Below, piece after piece: positions 3,001 through 61,148 of a stretch of 64,000 bases of DNA. Positions within the stretch are counted from its first letter, which is position 1; the number at the start of each line of letters is the position of its first letter. This stretch comes from a virus: the IMG/VR virus record IMGVR_UViG_3300046513_000343, positions 1-64,000 of that record; one strand, 5' to 3'. The notes under the pieces are model-generated. The model had not been told where the DNA came from. It searched no databases and saw only the letters and a list, made by a program, of their open reading frames with translations. Made by a program: the position numbers and the translations under genes.

Positions 3001-6000
3001 GGCGTGGCCGTATAATTCGTGGAAGATCGTCCTTTCCACTTCCTCCGCCGTGCCATGGGCCTGCTGCACCACATATACGGTGTTCTCAAAAAACACGCCC
3101 TTGCCAAGGTTGAGCTGCTGACGGCGCGCCGCCGCTTGCAACACCGGCGGCAAGTCGGCCATCCCCCGCACTGGCTTGATGGTGACCGGCAGCGCGGCGC
3201 CCACGCGCCGGGCGAAAGCGGCCTGGATGCGCTCGATGACGGTGTCCAGGGCGCGGTCGCTGATCGGGTGCGGGTGTTGCGCGACGGCCCCCGCCTGGCC
3301 ATTCTTGGCACGCGCAAATAGCGGGTCCTCGGTGCGGCGCTTGCGGTCCTCGGCACGCCGTTGCAGGCGTGGTGCGGGTTCCGGTCCCGGCTCCCGGTCG
3401 CCGGTCAAGGTCAATTCCGGGGCGGCCGGGGCGCTATTGGCCGCGGCGGCCTGCGGCTTTGCCGACAGCTGGCGGATCACGTCTTCCAGGCGCGCCATCT
3501 TCTCGTCCAGCTCGGCCTGATGCGCGAACGGGACATCGCGCTTGGGCAGCAATTCAGGCAACGCTTTTTCGGCGTCGGCGATGCGCTCCTTGGCGGAACG
3601 AATGCCGCGCGTGAAGTAATCCGGGTCGGCCGTCCTTTCCAGCTCGATCAATGGCGCGGCCAGCAGCGCGGTGCTGAATTGGCCGTCCTTGCCGTCCGAC
3701 GAATTCCCAGCGGCCAGCGTGCTGCCGTCGGCGCGCTGCAAGGCCAAGGTGGCGCCGTAGAAGCTAAAGTATTGGCTGCGCCCGACCGTCAATTCGAGCG
3801 GCATGCCCAGCATGGTGCCGAGGATGACGCTCTTTTGCTCGCCCTTGGTCAGGCTGTTGGCCAGCTCGGTGGCGCGTTCGGCGGCGATGCGCTGCAGGGC
3901 GACCCGCTGCACCAGCGTCTGGCCGTCAACGCTGGCCTCGAATCTGTCGCCCAGCGCCGCGTTGACGGCGTCATGCGCGCCGTTCATCGAAGTGGCGCGC
4001 TTGGCGCCTACTTTGATGGTGAACTTGGCATCCTCGTTGCCGGCCTGCTGCGCCAACACCGAAGCGCGCACGGCGTCCATCGCCCCCTTGTAGGTTGAAT
4101 AGGCTTTGCCTTCCACCTCGACCGTGCGCTGCGCCACCGCCGCTTGCACGTCGGCCCAGGCCTTGTCCAGCGTGTCGACGTCGCGCTGGTAGCCGGCGAT
4201 GGCCGCCGGCATGGTCTTGAGGTCCCTTTCGGCGTCCTCGATCTGGCTGACCACGCCCCACATTTTGCGCGTGTATTGGCGCCGCAGCAGTTCCAGGCGG
4301 TCGATGTCGGCCATCAGCTTGACCCGCTCCAGCAGCAGCGGGTCGCCCGAGGCCAGCGCGGCCAGCTCGGCCATGGATACCGAATCGGCGTCCTCGAACT
4401 CCATCGAGAACGCGCCGTCGTAGTTGCGGATACCGTTAATGGTGCGCAACTTGGTCGCGTTCAGGTTCCACATTTTCGCGTCGATGGTGCGCTCGGTGGC
4501 ATAGGCGAGGATTTCGACTTCGAACTTGTCCATGCCGTACTTTTCCAGCAACGCATTGCCCTGCCGGATGATGCGCCCTTCGCGCTGCTCGATGTCGGAC
4601 GGCTTCCACGTCACGTCGGCATGGTGCAGCCCCACCAGCCGCTCCTGCACGTTGGTGCCGGCGCCCATGCGCTGGGTTGAGCCGATCAGCACCCGCACGC
4701 GGCCGTCGTTGACGGCATCGAACAGGGCCTGCTTCTGCTCGTCGTTGTTGGCTTCCTGCACGAAGCGGATTTCATTGGCCGGGATGCCGCGCGCGATCAG
4801 GTTGTCCTTGATCTGCTGGTAAGCGTTCCAGCCGCCGGCCAGCGCTTGACGCAGCGCGTCCATTTCATCCGGGTCGAATGCTTCCAGCTTCTCGCCGATG
4901 CGGCGCTGGGCGTCCTCGTCGTCGTCCAGCAGCGCCTGCTCCTGGGCGGCCAGCAGCGTGTCGTACTCCTTGACCCGCTTGTCGTCGCCCTTCGACTTCG
5001 GCACCGAACGGTCGAGGAACACCAGCTGCGTGCCAAGGTCCGCGTGCCACTTCTGATACAGGCGTGTCACCTCGTCGGCGATCTTTTCCAGCTTGCCGCC
5101 TGCCTCCTTGCTCGGGTTGTGCGGGTCGATCGCGCGCACATCGAGCGAGACCTTGCGCGCCCGGTCCATCAGGCGCAGGCGTTCCTTGTTGCGTTCATAC
5201 GGGTCGGTGATGCCCGGCAGGTGGTCGAAGGCGGCCATGATGTGGTCCAGCATGGCCTGCTGCGCCGCGGTCGGCTGGATCACCACCGACTGGCGGTCGC
5301 CGCCCCGCACCCGCGGGATGGGGAATTCGGCGCCCTCGTTGTCCTCGCGGTAGGCTTTCTTGATGTCGTCGTTGCTGACCGCGTCGGTGAAGCCGTAGTA
5401 CAGGTCCATCAGCGAGCGCATATTCGACCAGGTGCGCCCGAGCCGGTTGACCTCTTTCAGGCGGCCGGTCTCGTTCGGCTCCCAGGCGGCGTCGTTCGAG
5501 ACGTACTGCGCGCGCCACGCATCGAAGTGTTCCAGCCCCAGGTCGCGCAGCTCGTCGGCGGCCAGGTAGCGCATCATGGTGTACATTTCCACCGCGCTGT
5601 TGGAGATCGGCGTGCCGGTCATGAACGTGACGGCGCCCTTGGGCGACTCGCGCAGCACGCGCACCTTGTTGTACAGGTCGAAGGCCTTTTGCGAACCGGC
5701 CTTGTTGCCCATTCCCTTAACATTTGTTAAACGTGATGAATAAAACAAGTTTTTGAACTCGTGAGACTCATCTATTGTCAGATCGTCAACACCCATCTGC
5801 TCGAAGGTGAGCAACTTGTCCTTGTTTTGGCTGCCCCTGATCTTGTCCATGCGCGCGGTGATCTTGTCGCGCAGGCGTTCGGCCTCCTTGACGCCGAACG
5901 GCTTGCGCGTGCTGCCTTGCTGGCTGGGGTCTTCGTCGGCCGCCTGTTGCGCCTCGATGATGGCCGCCTCGGCTGTTTGCAGCTCCTGCTCCAGGTAGCG

Positions 6001-34458: not shown

Positions 34459-35238
34459 CTATGCGGCAGAATCCCAGCGAATGATGCGCGATTGCGCAGC
34501 GGCGGTCTGAACCAGGCCGAAACCGCCCATGTAGTACCAGGCCACACCACGCTGGCGACCGTAATCGCCAGGGATCATGCCGCGCATTTCCTCGGGGATC
34601 ACGATGCCCTCGGCGACGGTGTCGTTGCCGAAGAAGTAGGCCCAGTTCGACAGGCCGTTGGTGAACGCGGCCTTGGCGATGTTGGTCTGCTCGACGAAGC
34701 GCACCGACTCGTAGCGGCCGATCTCGCCGTTCAAGATCATCTGGAAACCGGCGTCCACGTACTGGTGGACAGCTTCCAGGTCGTTCTTCAACTGGCGGAA
34801 CGTGGTCGGGTGGGCCAGGCTGATGTAGTCATCCTGGATATAGGGCGGGACGTTGCGCTCTTTCATCACGTCCACGATGGCCTTCACGTGATTTTTGCCC
34901 AAACTCACATTATTCGTCGCCGTCGCAGTGCCGTTGGTGGTCAACGTCACGGCGGAAGTCGAGGTGCCGCCGGTCGGCACCACGCGCAGCGGGGTCAGGC
35001 GGAACTGCGCCTCGGCCATGATGTCGAAGGCCTTCTTGGCGTCGTTCTTCAAGACCTTGCTGATGATCTCCTTGACCGGCTGTTCCGAGAGGTCGTCCAG
35101 CTTGGAGCTGTACGGCACGCTGTTGCCGGCCTCGGTGATGGTCATGGTGCCCTGGGTAATTACGAAGTTCGTGGTTGGCATCGCGGTGCCTTCCGTGAGC
35201 GTCGTTCCTTGGGTCGCTACATCGCTGTAAACGTTCCA
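34459..35238 (-). CDS. Major capsid protein, exon 3 (259 codons plus stop)
   Basis: Begins in frame with WNVYSDVATQGTTLTEG and ends IIRWDSAA. The fold-type features (long central helix region, YIQDDYISLAHPTTFRQL, RYESVRFVEQTNI) fit HK97-fold coat proteins of the N4-gp56/podovirus type. Joined to exons 1 and 2 it gives a 314-residue coat protein, directly after the scaffold gene as expected. Reading exon 3 alone from an upstream GTG would give a coat lacking its N-terminal arm and without a ribosome site. Splicing is inferred from sequence, but the join restores a continuous, family-like N-terminus. Confidence 0.88.
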   Translation of the reverse strand, partial: WNVYSDVATQGTTLTEGTAMPTTNFVITQGTMTITEAGNSVPYSSKLDDLSEQPVKEIISKVLKNDAKKAFDIMAEAQFRLTPLRVVPTGGTSTSAVTLTTNGTATATNNVSLGKNHVKAIVDVMKERNVPPYIQDDYISLAHPTTFRQLKNDLEAVHQYVDAGFQMILNGEIGRYESVRFVEQTNIAKAAFTNGLSNWAYFFGNDTVAEGIVIPEEMRGMIPGDYGRQRGVAWYYMGGFGLVQTAAAQSRIIRWDSAA

Positions 35239-35467
35239 CACACTGTTACTTGATAACCTGTCGCTGCATTGACAGGCGGGTGGTCATTTCTGCCACCTCA
35301 CGGCGTTCATTGGGTTATATGCCGTGGTCGGACTATCGCATCCCCGTTGCCGGGGCCAACTCGCTTAGTCTCTCAGGCTGCACAGCCTTGCGGCTTGCTT
35401 GCCCCTTCTTTCCCGCTGCCGGGGGTTGAAGTCAATCAGAGTCGGTTTTAATTCCACCAGGTCGTTA
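35239..35467 (-). ncRNA. Group I intron 2 in the major capsid gene
   Basis: 229 nucleotides, no ORF. The 5' exon end AUUCCAU pairs with the internal guide GUGGAAU (35457-35451), giving P1 with the required U.G at the splice site. P7 strands are GACTA (35370-35366, within GAGAGACTAAGCG) and TAGTC (35335-35331, within GATAGTCCG). The intron ends in G (35239) before TGG of exon 3. Stop codons in frame exclude plain translation through it. Confidence 0.88.
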
Positions 35468-35596
35468 ATGGAATGCGTCACCCATGCCTTTACCCTGGAC
35501 AGCTGCGTCCTTGATATCAGCAAATTGACGGAATTTTGTGAGTGGCTGGACGGCCATACGCAAAACTTTTGAGAGGTTGGGGGACCACATGTATCC
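35468..35596 (-). CDS. Major capsid protein, exon 2 (43 codons)
   Basis: Encodes GYMWSPNLSKVLRMAVQPL followed by TKFRQFADIKDAA and GKGMGDAFH. Flanked on both sides by group I introns and in frame with both neighbours. No start codon or ribosome site of its own. It supplies the conserved coat N-terminal region between exon 1 (ending NSLG) and exon 3 (starting WNVYSD). Confidence 0.88.
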
Positions 35597-35866
35597 CATT
35601 TTGTTCAGCAGAGATCGCTACACGCTGCTCGCCGGTTCCCACTCCGGCTGCTTGCCATTTCTGGCAAGATCAGACTATTTCATCGTCCCTTGGGACGTTG
35701 CGCACTTCGGGGCGCTTGCCCCTACTCCCACCTACGGGATAGTCGTTGAACCTTCCGGCTTGCGCCGGCTTGGCTGCAGATTGTCTGCGCCTTAACGCGG
35801 TCAGAGTTCCCTGCAATTCACGCAATTATCAGTCGCCGATTACTCGGTGACGGGGCAGTGTTATTT
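35597..35866 (-). ncRNA. Group I intron 1 in the major capsid gene
   Basis: 270 nucleotides, no ORF. Classic core elements are legible on the minus strand: AATTGCAGGGAA (P4 side), CAATCTGCAGCCAAGCC (Q), GGTTCAACGACTATCC (R) and GATGAAATAGTCTGATC (S). P7 pairs GACTAT (35744-35739) with ATAGTC (35678-35673). P1 pairs exon GGGU with GCCC (35856-35853), U.G at the splice site. The last base is G (35597). Several in-frame stops begin at its second codon. Confidence 0.93.
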
Positions 35867-35902
35867 ACCCAGGCTGTTGGTGAGCCAGACTTGACCTGCC
35901 AT
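35867..35902 (-). CDS. Major capsid protein, exon 1 (12 codons)
   Basis: MAGQVWLTNSLG, starting 8 bases behind TTAGGAG. Without splicing translation would stop after one more codon (AAA TAA). Joined to exon 2 it reads NSLGGYMWSPNLSKVLR, a typical coat-protein N-terminus in this phage type (recollection). The exon ends in T, as group I 5' splice sites require. Confidence 0.88.
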
Positions 35903-35937
35903 GATATGTACTCCTAAAAGAGAAAGATGGACTCCAC

Positions 35938-38107: not shown

Positions 38108-38329
38108 CTAGTCGCCGTGGGTGGCTTGGCCTTTGACCAGGTAGCGCTGGCCGCAGTGCAGGCATTGTTCGCGGCGCTGGCTGTCGGCGTGGCGTTCCAT
38201 CGGCCAGGTGCGGCTCTGGCAATGCAGGCAGTTTTTCAGTTTGCGCCAGCTGACCTTTTGCTCTGGTTCGCCGACGCGGGCATCGCGTGCCTGTTGCAGC
38301 AGGTCCAGCGGCAGGTCGTCGGTCAGCAT
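38108..38329 (-). CDS. Small zinc-ribbon-like protein
   Basis: 73 residues: MLTDDLPLDLLQQARDARVG, then CLHC and, 24 residues on, CLHC, the spacing of a two-CxxC zinc ribbon. The ATG overlaps the last codons of the DPPY methyltransferase gene. Possibly a nucleic-acid-binding partner of that enzyme; inferred only from coupling. Confidence 0.75.
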   Translation of the reverse strand: MLTDDLPLDLLQQARDARVGEPEQKVSWRKLKNCLHCQSRTWPMERHADSQRREQCLHCGQRYLVKGQATHGD

Positions 38330-39612
38330 GGCGTGTCCTCGAACAGGTCGGGCTGCAAGCTCGCGCCTTGCGGGGAAGACGCGCAATCCGCCGCGGCCGT
38401 GCGCTGCGCGTGCAGGATGCGCGCCTCGGCAATCGGCAGGTACTCCGGGGTCAGTTCGATGCCGATGAAGTCGAAGCCTTCCAGCATGCAGGCCTTGCCG
38501 GTGGAGCCGCTGCCCATGAACGGGTCCAGCACCACGCCGCCCGGTGGCGTCACCAGCCGCACCAGGTAACGCATCAGCTCGGTGGGCTTGACGGTCGGGT
38601 GAAAGTTGCCGCGTGCGCTGTTGGTGCGTGTTCCCTGGCTGCGCCCTGCGCGCTGGTCCACCGAGGTCTTGATGCCATTGAGCGGTTCGACGGTGTGCAG
38701 TGCGAAGCCCTCCAGCCCCTCGTTGCGGTCGCGCTGGGACACCTTGGCGCTGTAGAAGAAGCGCGCCGCGCTGCCGGTGTCAAAGTGACGTTCAGGAACG
38801 TCCTGCTGGCCGATATGGCCACTGGTGCTGATGCCACCGGCACCGCGCGCGGCCGGGGTATGGCCGACCGAGCTGGTGGTCGGGAAAGCGGCGATCACCT
38901 CGTCGCTGCCGTCGTGGATCAGGTTGGCGGGCCAGCGGCCAGGTGCGCCGCTCGGTGTCGTTTCGCCCATCTGGTACGTGCCGGGGCGGTATCCCGCTTC
39001 GGCCAGTGCGGCGTTGCGGCGGTCAACACCGCTTGGCGTCGTGTTCACGAAATCGCCAACCCGGCAACCGTCGATATTCAGTGCCCCGGTGCCGAACTGC
39101 AGCACGTTGGAGGCCACGGTGCCGATTAGGGGCTTGCGCGCCACGCAGATAGGCTCGTGCGCAGGTTTCAGCGCGGTGCCCCAGCCGGCGTGATCGCCGT
39201 CCAGGTTGAGCGATTTCGGGAATCCGCTGCCATACACCCACATGATCTGGTCGCGTATTTCAGCCCCGGCGTCCTCAATGGCGCACGCCATGCGGTGATA
39301 GGTGCGGCTGCCCGAGAACGCCAGCAGATGCCCGCCAGGTTTAAGCACGCGCATCGCTTCGGTCCACAGCTCCACGCTTTGCGCGATGTCGCCGCCGTCC
39401 CATTTCATGCCCATGAACCCTGCCGAATTTAAGTGGCTGACCTTGCTGTATGGACTGGTAGTGCTTTTGCTCTCGCTCGCCTTGCCGCTGCCGCCCTTCT
39501 TGCCGGTCGTCAGGTGGTACGGCGGGTCGGTGACGATGGCGTCCACCGAGTTGTCGGGCATGCCGCGCATCACGGCGAGGCAGTCGCCCAGGTGCAGGGT
39601 AAAGTCGCTCAT
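38323..39612 (-). CDS. DNA methyltransferase, beta-class N6-adenine/N4-cytosine
   Basis: 429 residues. Catalytic DPPY at 29-32, then a long variable region with inserts, and the SAM-binding DPFMGSGSTGKA at about 363. The order DPPY then FxGxG is the beta class. HPTVKPTELMRYLVRLVTPP precedes the SAM motif, as in the N6_N4 family. No restriction nuclease neighbours it, so it is an orphan phage enzyme, probably protecting phage DNA. The ATG overlaps the upstream TGA. Confidence 0.9.
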   Translation of the reverse strand: MSDFTLHLGDCLAVMRGMPDNSVDAIVTDPPYHLTTGKKGGSGKASESKSTTSPYSKVSHLNSAGFMGMKWDGGDIAQSVELWTEAMRVLKPGGHLLAFSGSRTYHRMACAIEDAGAEIRDQIMWVYGSGFPKSLNLDGDHAGWGTALKPAHEPICVARKPLIGTVASNVLQFGTGALNIDGCRVGDFVNTTPSGVDRRNAALAEAGYRPGTYQMGETTPSGAPGRWPANLIHDGSDEVIAAFPTTSSVGHTPAARGAGGISTSGHIGQQDVPERHFDTGSAARFFYSAKVSQRDRNEGLEGFALHTVEPLNGIKTSVDQRAGRSQGTRTNSARGNFHPTVKPTELMRYLVRLVTPPGGVVLDPFMGSGSTGKACMLEGFDFIGIELTPEYLPIAEARILHAQRTAAADCASSPQGASLQPDLFEDTPC

Positions 39613-39983
39613 GTCGAGAATCCGAACATGTCGCGTTGCGGCGGCTCCGGGGGCTGCGTGCCGACGGCTGCGAGGAATTCCTTCCAGTCGTCGCGGCGGT
39701 ATTCCCACAGCAGCGCGTGTTGAGGGTGCAGGATTGCAAAGACGCGGGCCAAATCGGGCGCACGATGGTCGTTGATTTTCAAGGTGCCGTCGCTATCGCG
39801 CAAGCGGGAGAAGTGGCGCATGTCCTCAACAATGGTACGTGCCGAGAAGTGCTGTCTGCCGCGTTCAAGCATGACCAGCGCATGGCGCTCAAAGTCGTCG
39901 TAGATCGTCGGGTTATCGGCCAGCCACGCCAAGAATCCTGGCGCGAAGAATTGCCTGTAGCTTGCCAAGCGTCGCACATTCAT
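39609..39983 (-). CDS. Conserved-looking phage hypothetical protein
   Basis: 124 residues: MNVRRLASYRQFFAPGFLAW ... ALLWEYRRDDWKEFL, C-terminus RDMFGFST. Basic and aromatic, all-alpha in appearance. Coupled by ATGA overlaps to both neighbours. Proximity to the methyltransferase suggests a DNA-modification or restriction-evasion link, not demonstrable from sequence. Confidence 0.7.
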   Translation of the reverse strand: MNVRRLASYRQFFAPGFLAWLADNPTIYDDFERHALVMLERGRQHFSARTIVEDMRHFSRLRDSDGTLKINDHRAPDLARVFAILHPQHALLWEYRRDDWKEFLAAVGTQPPEPPQRDMFGFST

Positions 39984-59895: not shown

Positions 59896-60900
59896 CTACT
59901 CTACTGGAGCGCCCTCGCTGGTGCGTTTTTTTGCCTTGCCCGCCAGCCGCGCCGCCACCCACTCAGCGCTCTGTTTTTTGCCGAGCTTGGCTGCCGACAG
60001 TTTGGCGCGGTGTTCTGGCGTAAGTACCTTACCCTTGTTTGCCTTGCCCAAGTTGGCCAGGTGCTCTGCGGTTTTAACCCTGCCCTTGAGCTTCGCCGAT
60101 ATTTGCGCTCGCGTTGCCACCGAAATGACCTGCCCCTTGTGCGCTTCGGATAACTTGGCGCAGAACTCGGCGCTCATTATCATATTCTTGTTCCATGGGG
60201 TCGCCGGTGGGCTTGGCAGCTTCGGCGGTGGGGGTGGCAACATCGCCAGCTTGCGCGCACGGTTCGCCGCTTGCGTTGCGAGCCTTTTGGTGACCTGCTC
60301 TGGCGGCTGCTTCTTGCCAATTTTTGCCGCCGCAAGACGAAATCTGGTTTCAGGCGACACCGTGCGGCCTTTGGCGTTTGAATTGCCCATGCCAGCTTCG
60401 CTCAACCGCTTTTTCGTTTCATCCGAGTGGTGGGACAGTTGCTCTTTTTTTGCCTTGGAGATTGCCGCCCCACGCTCTGGCGGATAGGGGCCACGCTTCT
60501 TGCCTTTTTGCCCGGCACCGATATTTGCCCGCCACTCTGCTGACATCACGCGGCCCGTTAAGGACTTGCTGATATTGGCACGATGTTCTGGTGAATTTGT
60601 CATGCCTAACCGGCTACCGGCCGTCGCCGTCATGTTGTACCCCGATGCCCAGGCATCGAAACCGTCAATCGCGCGCTGCTCGTAGAACAGCAAGTCCTTC
60701 TTCTCGCAGCAGAACAAGATCACAAACACGAATGTATCCTTGCCGTACTTGATCCACGCTCGTTGCAGCTTGCTGCTGTGGTGGCAATTAGTATTGAGTT
60801 CGTGCCTATGCTTTATGAACCGCTTAGAGAAATGCACAGCGCTACCGACATACCGCTTGCCGTTGCTGGTATTAATGATTGCGTACACACCGGATTTCAT
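59896..60900 (-). CDS. GIY-YIG homing endonuclease with NUMOD3 repeats
   Basis: 334 residues. N-terminal GIY-YIG domain: GVYAIINTSNGKRYVGSAVH (GVY and YVG), then helix FIKHRHELN and WIKYGKDTFVF. From residue 140 onwards NUMOD3-type repeats (SPEHRANISKSLTGRVMSAE; TAEHLANLGKANKGKVLTPE), basic DNA-contact modules as in I-TevI-like enzymes. GAGGTG precedes the ATG. It is bracketed by terminators and has no intron around it, so it is a free-standing mobile gene. Potential partner of the coat introns. Confidence 0.9.
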   Translation of the reverse strand: MKSGVYAIINTSNGKRYVGSAVHFSKRFIKHRHELNTNCHHSSKLQRAWIKYGKDTFVFVILFCCEKKDLLFYEQRAIDGFDAWASGYNMTATAGSRLGMTNSPEHRANISKSLTGRVMSAEWRANIGAGQKGKKRGPYPPERGAAISKAKKEQLSHHSDETKKRLSEAGMGNSNAKGRTVSPETRFRLAAAKIGKKQPPEQVTKRLATQAANRARKLAMLPPPPPKLPSPPATPWNKNMIMSAEFCAKLSEAHKGQVISVATRAQISAKLKGRVKTAEHLANLGKANKGKVLTPEHRAKLSAAKLGKKQSAEWVAARLAGKAKKRTSEGAPVE

Positions 60901-60924
60901 TTTCACCTCGCGGTCGATGTGTAC

Positions 60925-60930
60925 ATTGTA
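60925..60930 (-). promoter_or_regulatory. Putative -10 box of the endonuclease
   Basis: TACAAT on the minus strand, 24 bases before the ATG and just after the upstream terminator. No convincing -35. Confidence 0.3.
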
Positions 60931-60943
60931 TTGCCTGGATTCC

Positions 60944-60970
60944 AAAAAAAAAGCCCGCGCGAGGCGGGCT
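60944..60970 (-). terminator. Rho-independent terminator upstream of the endonuclease
   Basis: Minus-strand stem AGCCCGC/GCGGGCT with a 5-base loop, then nine T. It insulates the endonuclease from the upstream operon. Confidence 0.85.
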
Positions 60971-60995
60971 GAACGTGGTGAACGTGGTGTCAGTC

Positions 60996-61148
60996 TCAGC
61001 GCGAGCCTGGCGGGGAATTGTTGGGCAGCAGCCACCAGCCGAGCTGGCGGCGAATTTCCACCGGCGTGCCCGGTGGCGTGGGCGCTTTAGCGCGCTCCTG
61101 CAGGTAGTGGCGGACAGCTTCTTTCGTCGGCGGGATCACGGTCGGCAT
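60996..61148 (-). CDS. Small hypothetical protein
   Basis: 50 residues: MPTVIPPTKEAVRHYLQERA, then RRQLGWWLLPNNSPPGSR. CAGGAGG with ideal spacing before ATG. Pro-rich and basic. Likely a virion minor or assembly protein; unknown. Confidence 0.7.
   Translation of the reverse strand: MPTVIPPTKEAVRHYLQERAKAPTPPGTPVEIRRQLGWWLLPNNSPPGSR

Follow-up and report, generated by a model that had tools for sequence, protein, structure and literature searches.

Two group I introns of different classes in a viral major capsid gene, very probably acquired together in a single homologous exchange

Group I introns in major capsid genes have been described in mycobacteriophage LittleE and lactococcal phage Tuc2009, in which the 5' exon ends with U and the intron with G, and for LittleE splicing of the capsid intron is proven experimentally (PMC3706429). 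Among viral group I introns, the IA2 type makes up over half of those in a recent database (PMC11835236). The IA2-type phage introns, such as those of T4 td, nrdB and nrdD and of the terminase gene of Escherichia phage RudolfGeigy, possess the core recognised by the Rfam model RF00028, followed after R by P7.1/P7.2. The P7.1/P7.2 elements are a hallmark of IA introns. Phage introns are known to be covered only in part by the seed of RF00028 (PMC11878797). Reverse splicing has long been proposed as a natural route of group I intron movement. A 2014 review knew of no experiment that directly demonstrated the pathway as a whole, and the best circumstantial case it named was the occurrence of related introns at two rDNA sites (PMC3984707). 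Spread by reverse splicing has been deduced for fungal rDNA group I introns, where related introns occupy different sites that have only a guide target of 4-8 nt in common (PMC1299323).

The window analysed here, a stretch of 64,000 nucleotides, is part of a 77,777-base IMG/VR virus record. Its major capsid gene (35902-34459, minus strand) is interrupted twice, and its parts are as follows.

35867 to 35902, minus strand: exon 1, 12 codons, MAGQVWLTNSLG, with the 3' end CTGGGT as the P1 partner of intron 1
35597 to 35866, minus strand: intron 1 at site A, 270 nt, a group I intron assigned to the IA type by its structure, without an ORF, matched by RF00028 and with same-site relatives in L145, L148 and G001
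35468 to 35596, minus strand: exon 2, 43 codons, with the 3' end ATTCCAT as the P1 partner of intron 2
35239 to 35467, minus strand: intron 2 at site C, 229 nt, a predicted minimal, P2-less group I intron without an ORF, of a family undetected by RF00028
34459 to 35238, minus strand: exon 3, through the stop codon

Excision of both introns leaves a single frame of 314 aa, which TIGR04387, the model of the N4-gp56 major capsid family, scores at 66.4 bits, above its cutoff of 60. The exon joins are exact because intron-free homologues read through them: the interruption is absent in 76 of the best 80 relatives in viral contigs, and the capsid gene of L125 is one uninterrupted frame encoding a protein identical to the 314-aa product. 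The exon 1 join is backed by both L125 and PTXU04, which are intron-free, and the empty site for intron 2 in L125 reads TTTCAC/TGG (slash, insertion point). Both introns have G as their last base (35239 in intron 2) and both 5' exons end with U, as in LittleE and Tuc2009. In comparison with those two phages, however, one gene carries two introns of two classes here, neither with a homing gene, and splicing is predicted. A sequence-only reading had already placed two introns in this gene, both without homing genes, and had quoted their Q, R and S motifs. The positions proved right to the base, 35239 and 35866 being the outer intron bases, all of the quoted motifs are found on the minus strand, and neither intron contains an endonuclease gene or ORF, the longest sense-strand stop-free runs being 51 codons in intron 1 and 33 codons in intron 2.

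Intron 1 is matched by RF00028 over 35876-35651 with 75.9 bits (E 1.7e-17), which exceeds the gathering score of 50 bits. Its Q (CAATCTGCAGCCAAGCC) is at 35783-35767 and its R (GGTTCAACGACTATCC) at 35752-35737 of the minus strand, and the exon-end GGGU is read from the sequence as pairing with the guide GCCC in P1. R is followed by a 33-nt insert that forms two hairpins.

35709 to 35738, minus strand: P7.1 and P7.2 hairpins of intron 1, between P7 and P3', from the sequence and alignment A2

Both hairpins are kept in the seven intron-1-type sequences of alignment A2, with a compensatory change in P7.2, and on this structural model intron 1 is of the IA type. The RudolfGeigy terminase intron is 75% identical to it over 43% of its length. 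What sets intron 1 apart from the IA2-type phage introns is its place in a capsid gene and its lack of a homing gene, its subgroup being assigned purely from structure.

Intron 2 is of another kind. RF00028 gives zero match to it even at E<=5 in the 1.1 kb searched; a model of its own family scores it at 179 bits, partly by construction because intron 2 is in the seed of that model. Its R (GAGAGACTAAGCG) is at 35374-35362 and its S (GATAGTCCG) at 35337-35329 of the minus strand.

35329 to 35374, minus strand: R and S of intron 2, with P7 formed around P3' and P8 and 100% paired in 40 sequences
35451 to 35457, minus strand: guide GTGGAAT of intron 2, pairing with the exon-end ATTCCAT, with U.G at the splice site

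A pattern derived from this core matched at least 119 stretches of viral contigs. In a diverse 40-member alignment of the family 96.6% of the cells are paired and 31 of the 40 pairs show compensatory change, against 40-46% of cells paired in partner-slid controls, none of which rises above 46%; the covariation score is 0.597 against 0.175 when shuffled. The supported helices are P3, P4, P5, P6, P7, P8, P9 and P9.1, with pairing in the 40 sequences of 98.6% for P3, 100% for P4, P6 and P7 and 97.5% for P8. The family has no P2, nor does it have P7.1/P7.2, P3' following R within three bases in 40 of 40 sequences. Because it has no P2 and P3' comes almost directly after R, intron 2 is not of the IA type. 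Judged by its conserved core, the U.G of P1, the terminal G and the precise absence in homologues, it is a group I intron.

Over 20 loci with members of the intron-2 family or related endonuclease-bearing members, RF00028 reached its cutoff three times, always on an intron-1-type intron at site A or D (introduced below), and the outcome was the same at E<=1 on six such loci. Thus, the family of intron 2 is widespread and is not recognised by RF00028, a blind spot that is no surprise in kind because the seed is known to be incomplete (PMC11878797). The group I introns of Bastillevirinae likewise fit known subgroups poorly, and the paper on them calls the Rfam model incomplete (PMC11878797); those introns are detectable with Rfam or GISSD models, whereas the family of intron 2 is without any RF00028 match. 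The exon pieces are short, and PHROGs annotated them too weakly to allow host genes to be tallied across the family. The closest deposited relatives of intron 2 have the same covariation core and lie in other host genes, namely the P22 coat gene of phage ctn9Y15 (74% identity over 54%) and the ribonucleotide reductase gene of Roseobacter phage CRP-118 (70% over 55%); both records annotate the gene as two CDS and no intron. In the former (L002:2976-3207, MW202674.1) a 'hypothetical protein', UOF80274.1, is annotated inside the intron of the P22-like coat gene, likely a misannotation, and in the latter (L003:1989-2207, OR420741.1) the ribonucleotide reductase gene is split by an unannotated intron of the family. 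Surveys based on RF00028 likely miss such introns, and phage capsid genes are then annotated as several proteins. Three introns of the family occur in series inside structural genes on each of the contigs L019, L085, L251 and L255.

That the two introns are copies of one, recently duplicated, is scarcely conceivable. They do share a gene and are both of group I, but there is no clear BLAST match between them (best E 0.09), RF00028 matches intron 1 and not intron 2, and the surroundings of P7 differ, which refutes a recent duplication of one intron into two. A gapped local alignment of the two outscores 300 shuffles, as expected of a shared group I core. The initial proposals that the introns belong to different subclasses and have no obvious similarity to each other, and that intron-free homologues with the same exon joins would support this, are therefore all upheld: intron 1 is RF00028-positive with P7.1/P7.2, intron 2 is RF00028-negative, minimal and P2-less, and the homologues exist.

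The DNA around the introns differs in ancestry from the rest of the gene. Against intron-free L125 the window shows 99.4% identity in the 500 bases upstream; most of exon 3 and the sequence beyond it reach 98.7-99.6%, but exon 2 stands at only 83.6%, every difference being synonymous. All 37 coding differences from L125 are silent, and 32 of them lie within the first 255 coding bases. These differences and the intron-bearing L145 delimit a tract of about 0.73-0.80 kb, which comprises both introns, the whole of exon 2, the last bases of exon 1 and ~90 bases of exon 3.

35149 to 35882 at minimum (35129-35931 at maximum), minus strand: imported tract with both introns, exon 2 and short flanks

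Where L125 and L145 differ, 27 of 30 sites inside the tract follow L145, and outside it 393 of 401 follow L125 and 8 of 401 L145, counts that omit sites matching neither (Fisher p 1.7e-32, a descriptive value because the interval was picked from the data). No second stretch resembles the tract at 35882-35149. The import also swapped the exon ends, from CTGGGC in L125 to CTGGGT in the window and from TTTCAC to TTCCAT, and the new versions pair with the intron guides. On these sequences, the simplest reading is that one exchange brought both introns together with exon 2 into an L125-like backbone. The same two-intron arrangement is present in L144 and L145, assemblies from different samples; L145, which is 95-99% identical to the window within the tract, is not the actual donor.

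Every sequence compared is a metagenome assembly, and a chimera of an intron-free and an intron-bearing phage from one sample might leave such a tract, its left junction lying within a 49-base stretch that is identical in L125 and L145. At the right junction, however, the nearest known sources are identical over only ~20 bases, L144 and L145 independently show the two-intron arrangement, and within the tract the window is 1-5% diverged from L145. Because so few bases are common to both sources at the right breakpoint, we regard an assembly chimera as highly improbable. We therefore have good confidence that the two group I introns, of different classes and independent origins, came jointly from an intron-bearing relative in one homologous exchange (co-conversion), and each is expected to splice via its own core.

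The wider histories of the two introns, as far as their sequences tell, differ. Intron 2 is 94.7% identical to the G001 copy, with 81-83% identity in the adjoining exon segments, from which it follows that this intron crossed lineages recently; intron 1 of the window and of G001 are only 79-85% identical. L148 has intron 1 at site A and a relative of intron 2 (~79% identical) at site B, with none at C. The two different families, their unequal identities to G001 and the arrangement in L148 are what would be expected if each intron had entered this backbone at a different time. Yet a donor-like haplotype runs uninterrupted across both introns and exon 2 within the L125-like backbone, and among 14 large records, a non-random set of which some were fetched for their introns and no member is known to be complete, both families are present in 5 and both absent in 9. 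Two arrivals at different times are improbable for this genome, although they are a likely history deeper in the clade. Hence the initial view of separate arrivals is right as to origins, which are independent because the introns are of different group I kinds and intron-free homologues give the same joins, and it is contradicted as to two independent insertions in this genome because one recombination tract carries both introns and exon 2. No gene other than the capsid gene yielded a group I intron in the search of the 14 large records.

Joint acquisition concerns introns at two of four sites used in the capsid genes of this clade, where intron-1 types are found at A and D and intron-2 types at B and C, B being 60 coding bases upstream of C.

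L354:2076-2344 and L261:10722-10446: intron-1-type introns at site D, near codon 293, after a YTGGGT exon end as at A
L181:1763-2500, L213:1673-997 and L307:961-261: longer, LAGLIDADG-type ORF alleles at site B
L261:12190-11437, L314:391-1114 and L324:1898-2620: longer, LAGLIDADG-type ORF alleles at site C

The 5'-exon target common to A and D is YTGGGT/GG, and B and C have only TTCCRT in common. The guide is matched to each of the latter, being GCGGAA (for TTCCGT) in 7 of 7 site-B rows, three of which are one identical intron, and GTGGAA (for TTCCAT) in 7 of 7 site-C rows. Copies at A and D are 68-73% identical and copies within each site are closer to one another, so a recent A/D duplicate was dropped and no recent jump between these sites is claimed. 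A move between B and C as a resolved sister pair was likewise set aside, since the 102-intron tree does not settle the positions of L148 and L344 and the AU test (p 0.43) neither rejects nor supports it. The site-C LAGLIDADG-type allele of L261 shows 94% protein identity; Pfam support for the LAGLIDADG-type genes is weak, the cutoff being reached in one of three. A derivation of intron 2 from the site-C LAGLIDADG intron by simple deletion is not favoured, because the 5' half of the core differs, though the P9.1 region matches. The LAGLIDADG-type frame extends across the intron core in L181 and L213, and the capsid homologue at L224:7807-8790 has a probable extra intron near codon 82/83 besides the site-C endonuclease form.

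A second capsid gene holds a younger pair. L025 carries two intron-2-family introns without a homing gene (3108-3316 and 3641-3846) in one SU10-type major capsid gene (PF17236). They are 93.4% identical and are sisters in the 102-intron tree (support 100/94), and their similarity starts at a common 7-nt 5'-exon target, AGACGCT, and stops in the last few intron bases, the flanks being unrelated. This pattern fits what reverse splicing predicts and suggests RNA-guided ectopic spread, which selection on rare DNA-level insertions could mimic.

Based on these site pairs, we tentatively propose that the guide sequence may direct movement to new sites, such that introns would have reached new sites in the same gene by reverse splicing under direction of the guide, followed by reverse transcription and recombination, with A/D and B/C as traces. 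The guide matching at each site and the confinement of the L025 likeness to the intron and its 7-nt target speak for the proposal, and the same criteria have been applied to the fungal rDNA introns (PMC1299323), from which the present case differs in involving phage protein genes and a young pair. Against it, the tree does not make the site-B and site-C copies sisters, the A and D copies are too divergent to attest a recent move, and endonuclease-bearing alleles exist at both B and C, so that DNA-level insertions under selection for splicing could look alike. It is accordingly possible, rather than probable, that Rfam overlooks a widespread subgroup of phage group I introns, that intron 2 is a member of it, and that the subgroup is spreading in this manner to new sites within capsid genes. 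If so, the B/C site pair and the L025 twins would document, from nature, the RNA-based transposition of group I introns in protein-coding genes. In the capsid genes, introns free of homing genes sit at guide-matched sites of one phage gene, a second gene has a near-identical pair, and an allele lacking introns encodes the same protein.

With respect to the joint transfer, we infer that in vivo each intron would splice independently from the capsid mRNA, and that in co-infected cells the intron-bearing allele would be copied over an empty one, flanking exon included, through break repair or plain recombination. The exchange was perhaps begun by the endonuclease of a relative, for instance the LAGLIDADG gene at site C in L261, and introns without an endonuclease may ride with a linked intron or use a relative's endonuclease in trans. 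That two unrelated introns, neither containing a gene, moved as a linked unit suggests a route of spread for introns that lack endonucleases. The introns themselves are ordinary in kind; what is noteworthy is the Rfam-unseen family, the linked transfer and the guide-matched site pairs.

No HNH or LAGLIDADG gene was found in the window's own record. The window does contain a homing endonuclease gene with GIY-YIG and NUMOD3 (59896-61035, minus strand), ~24 kb from the capsid gene; it was considered as a driver and rejected, being absent from the other intron-bearing records searched, and is not tied to the introns because it is missing from 13 related records. Between the capsid and portal genes lies a DNA methyltransferase gene (phrog_67) at 38323-39708 on the minus strand.
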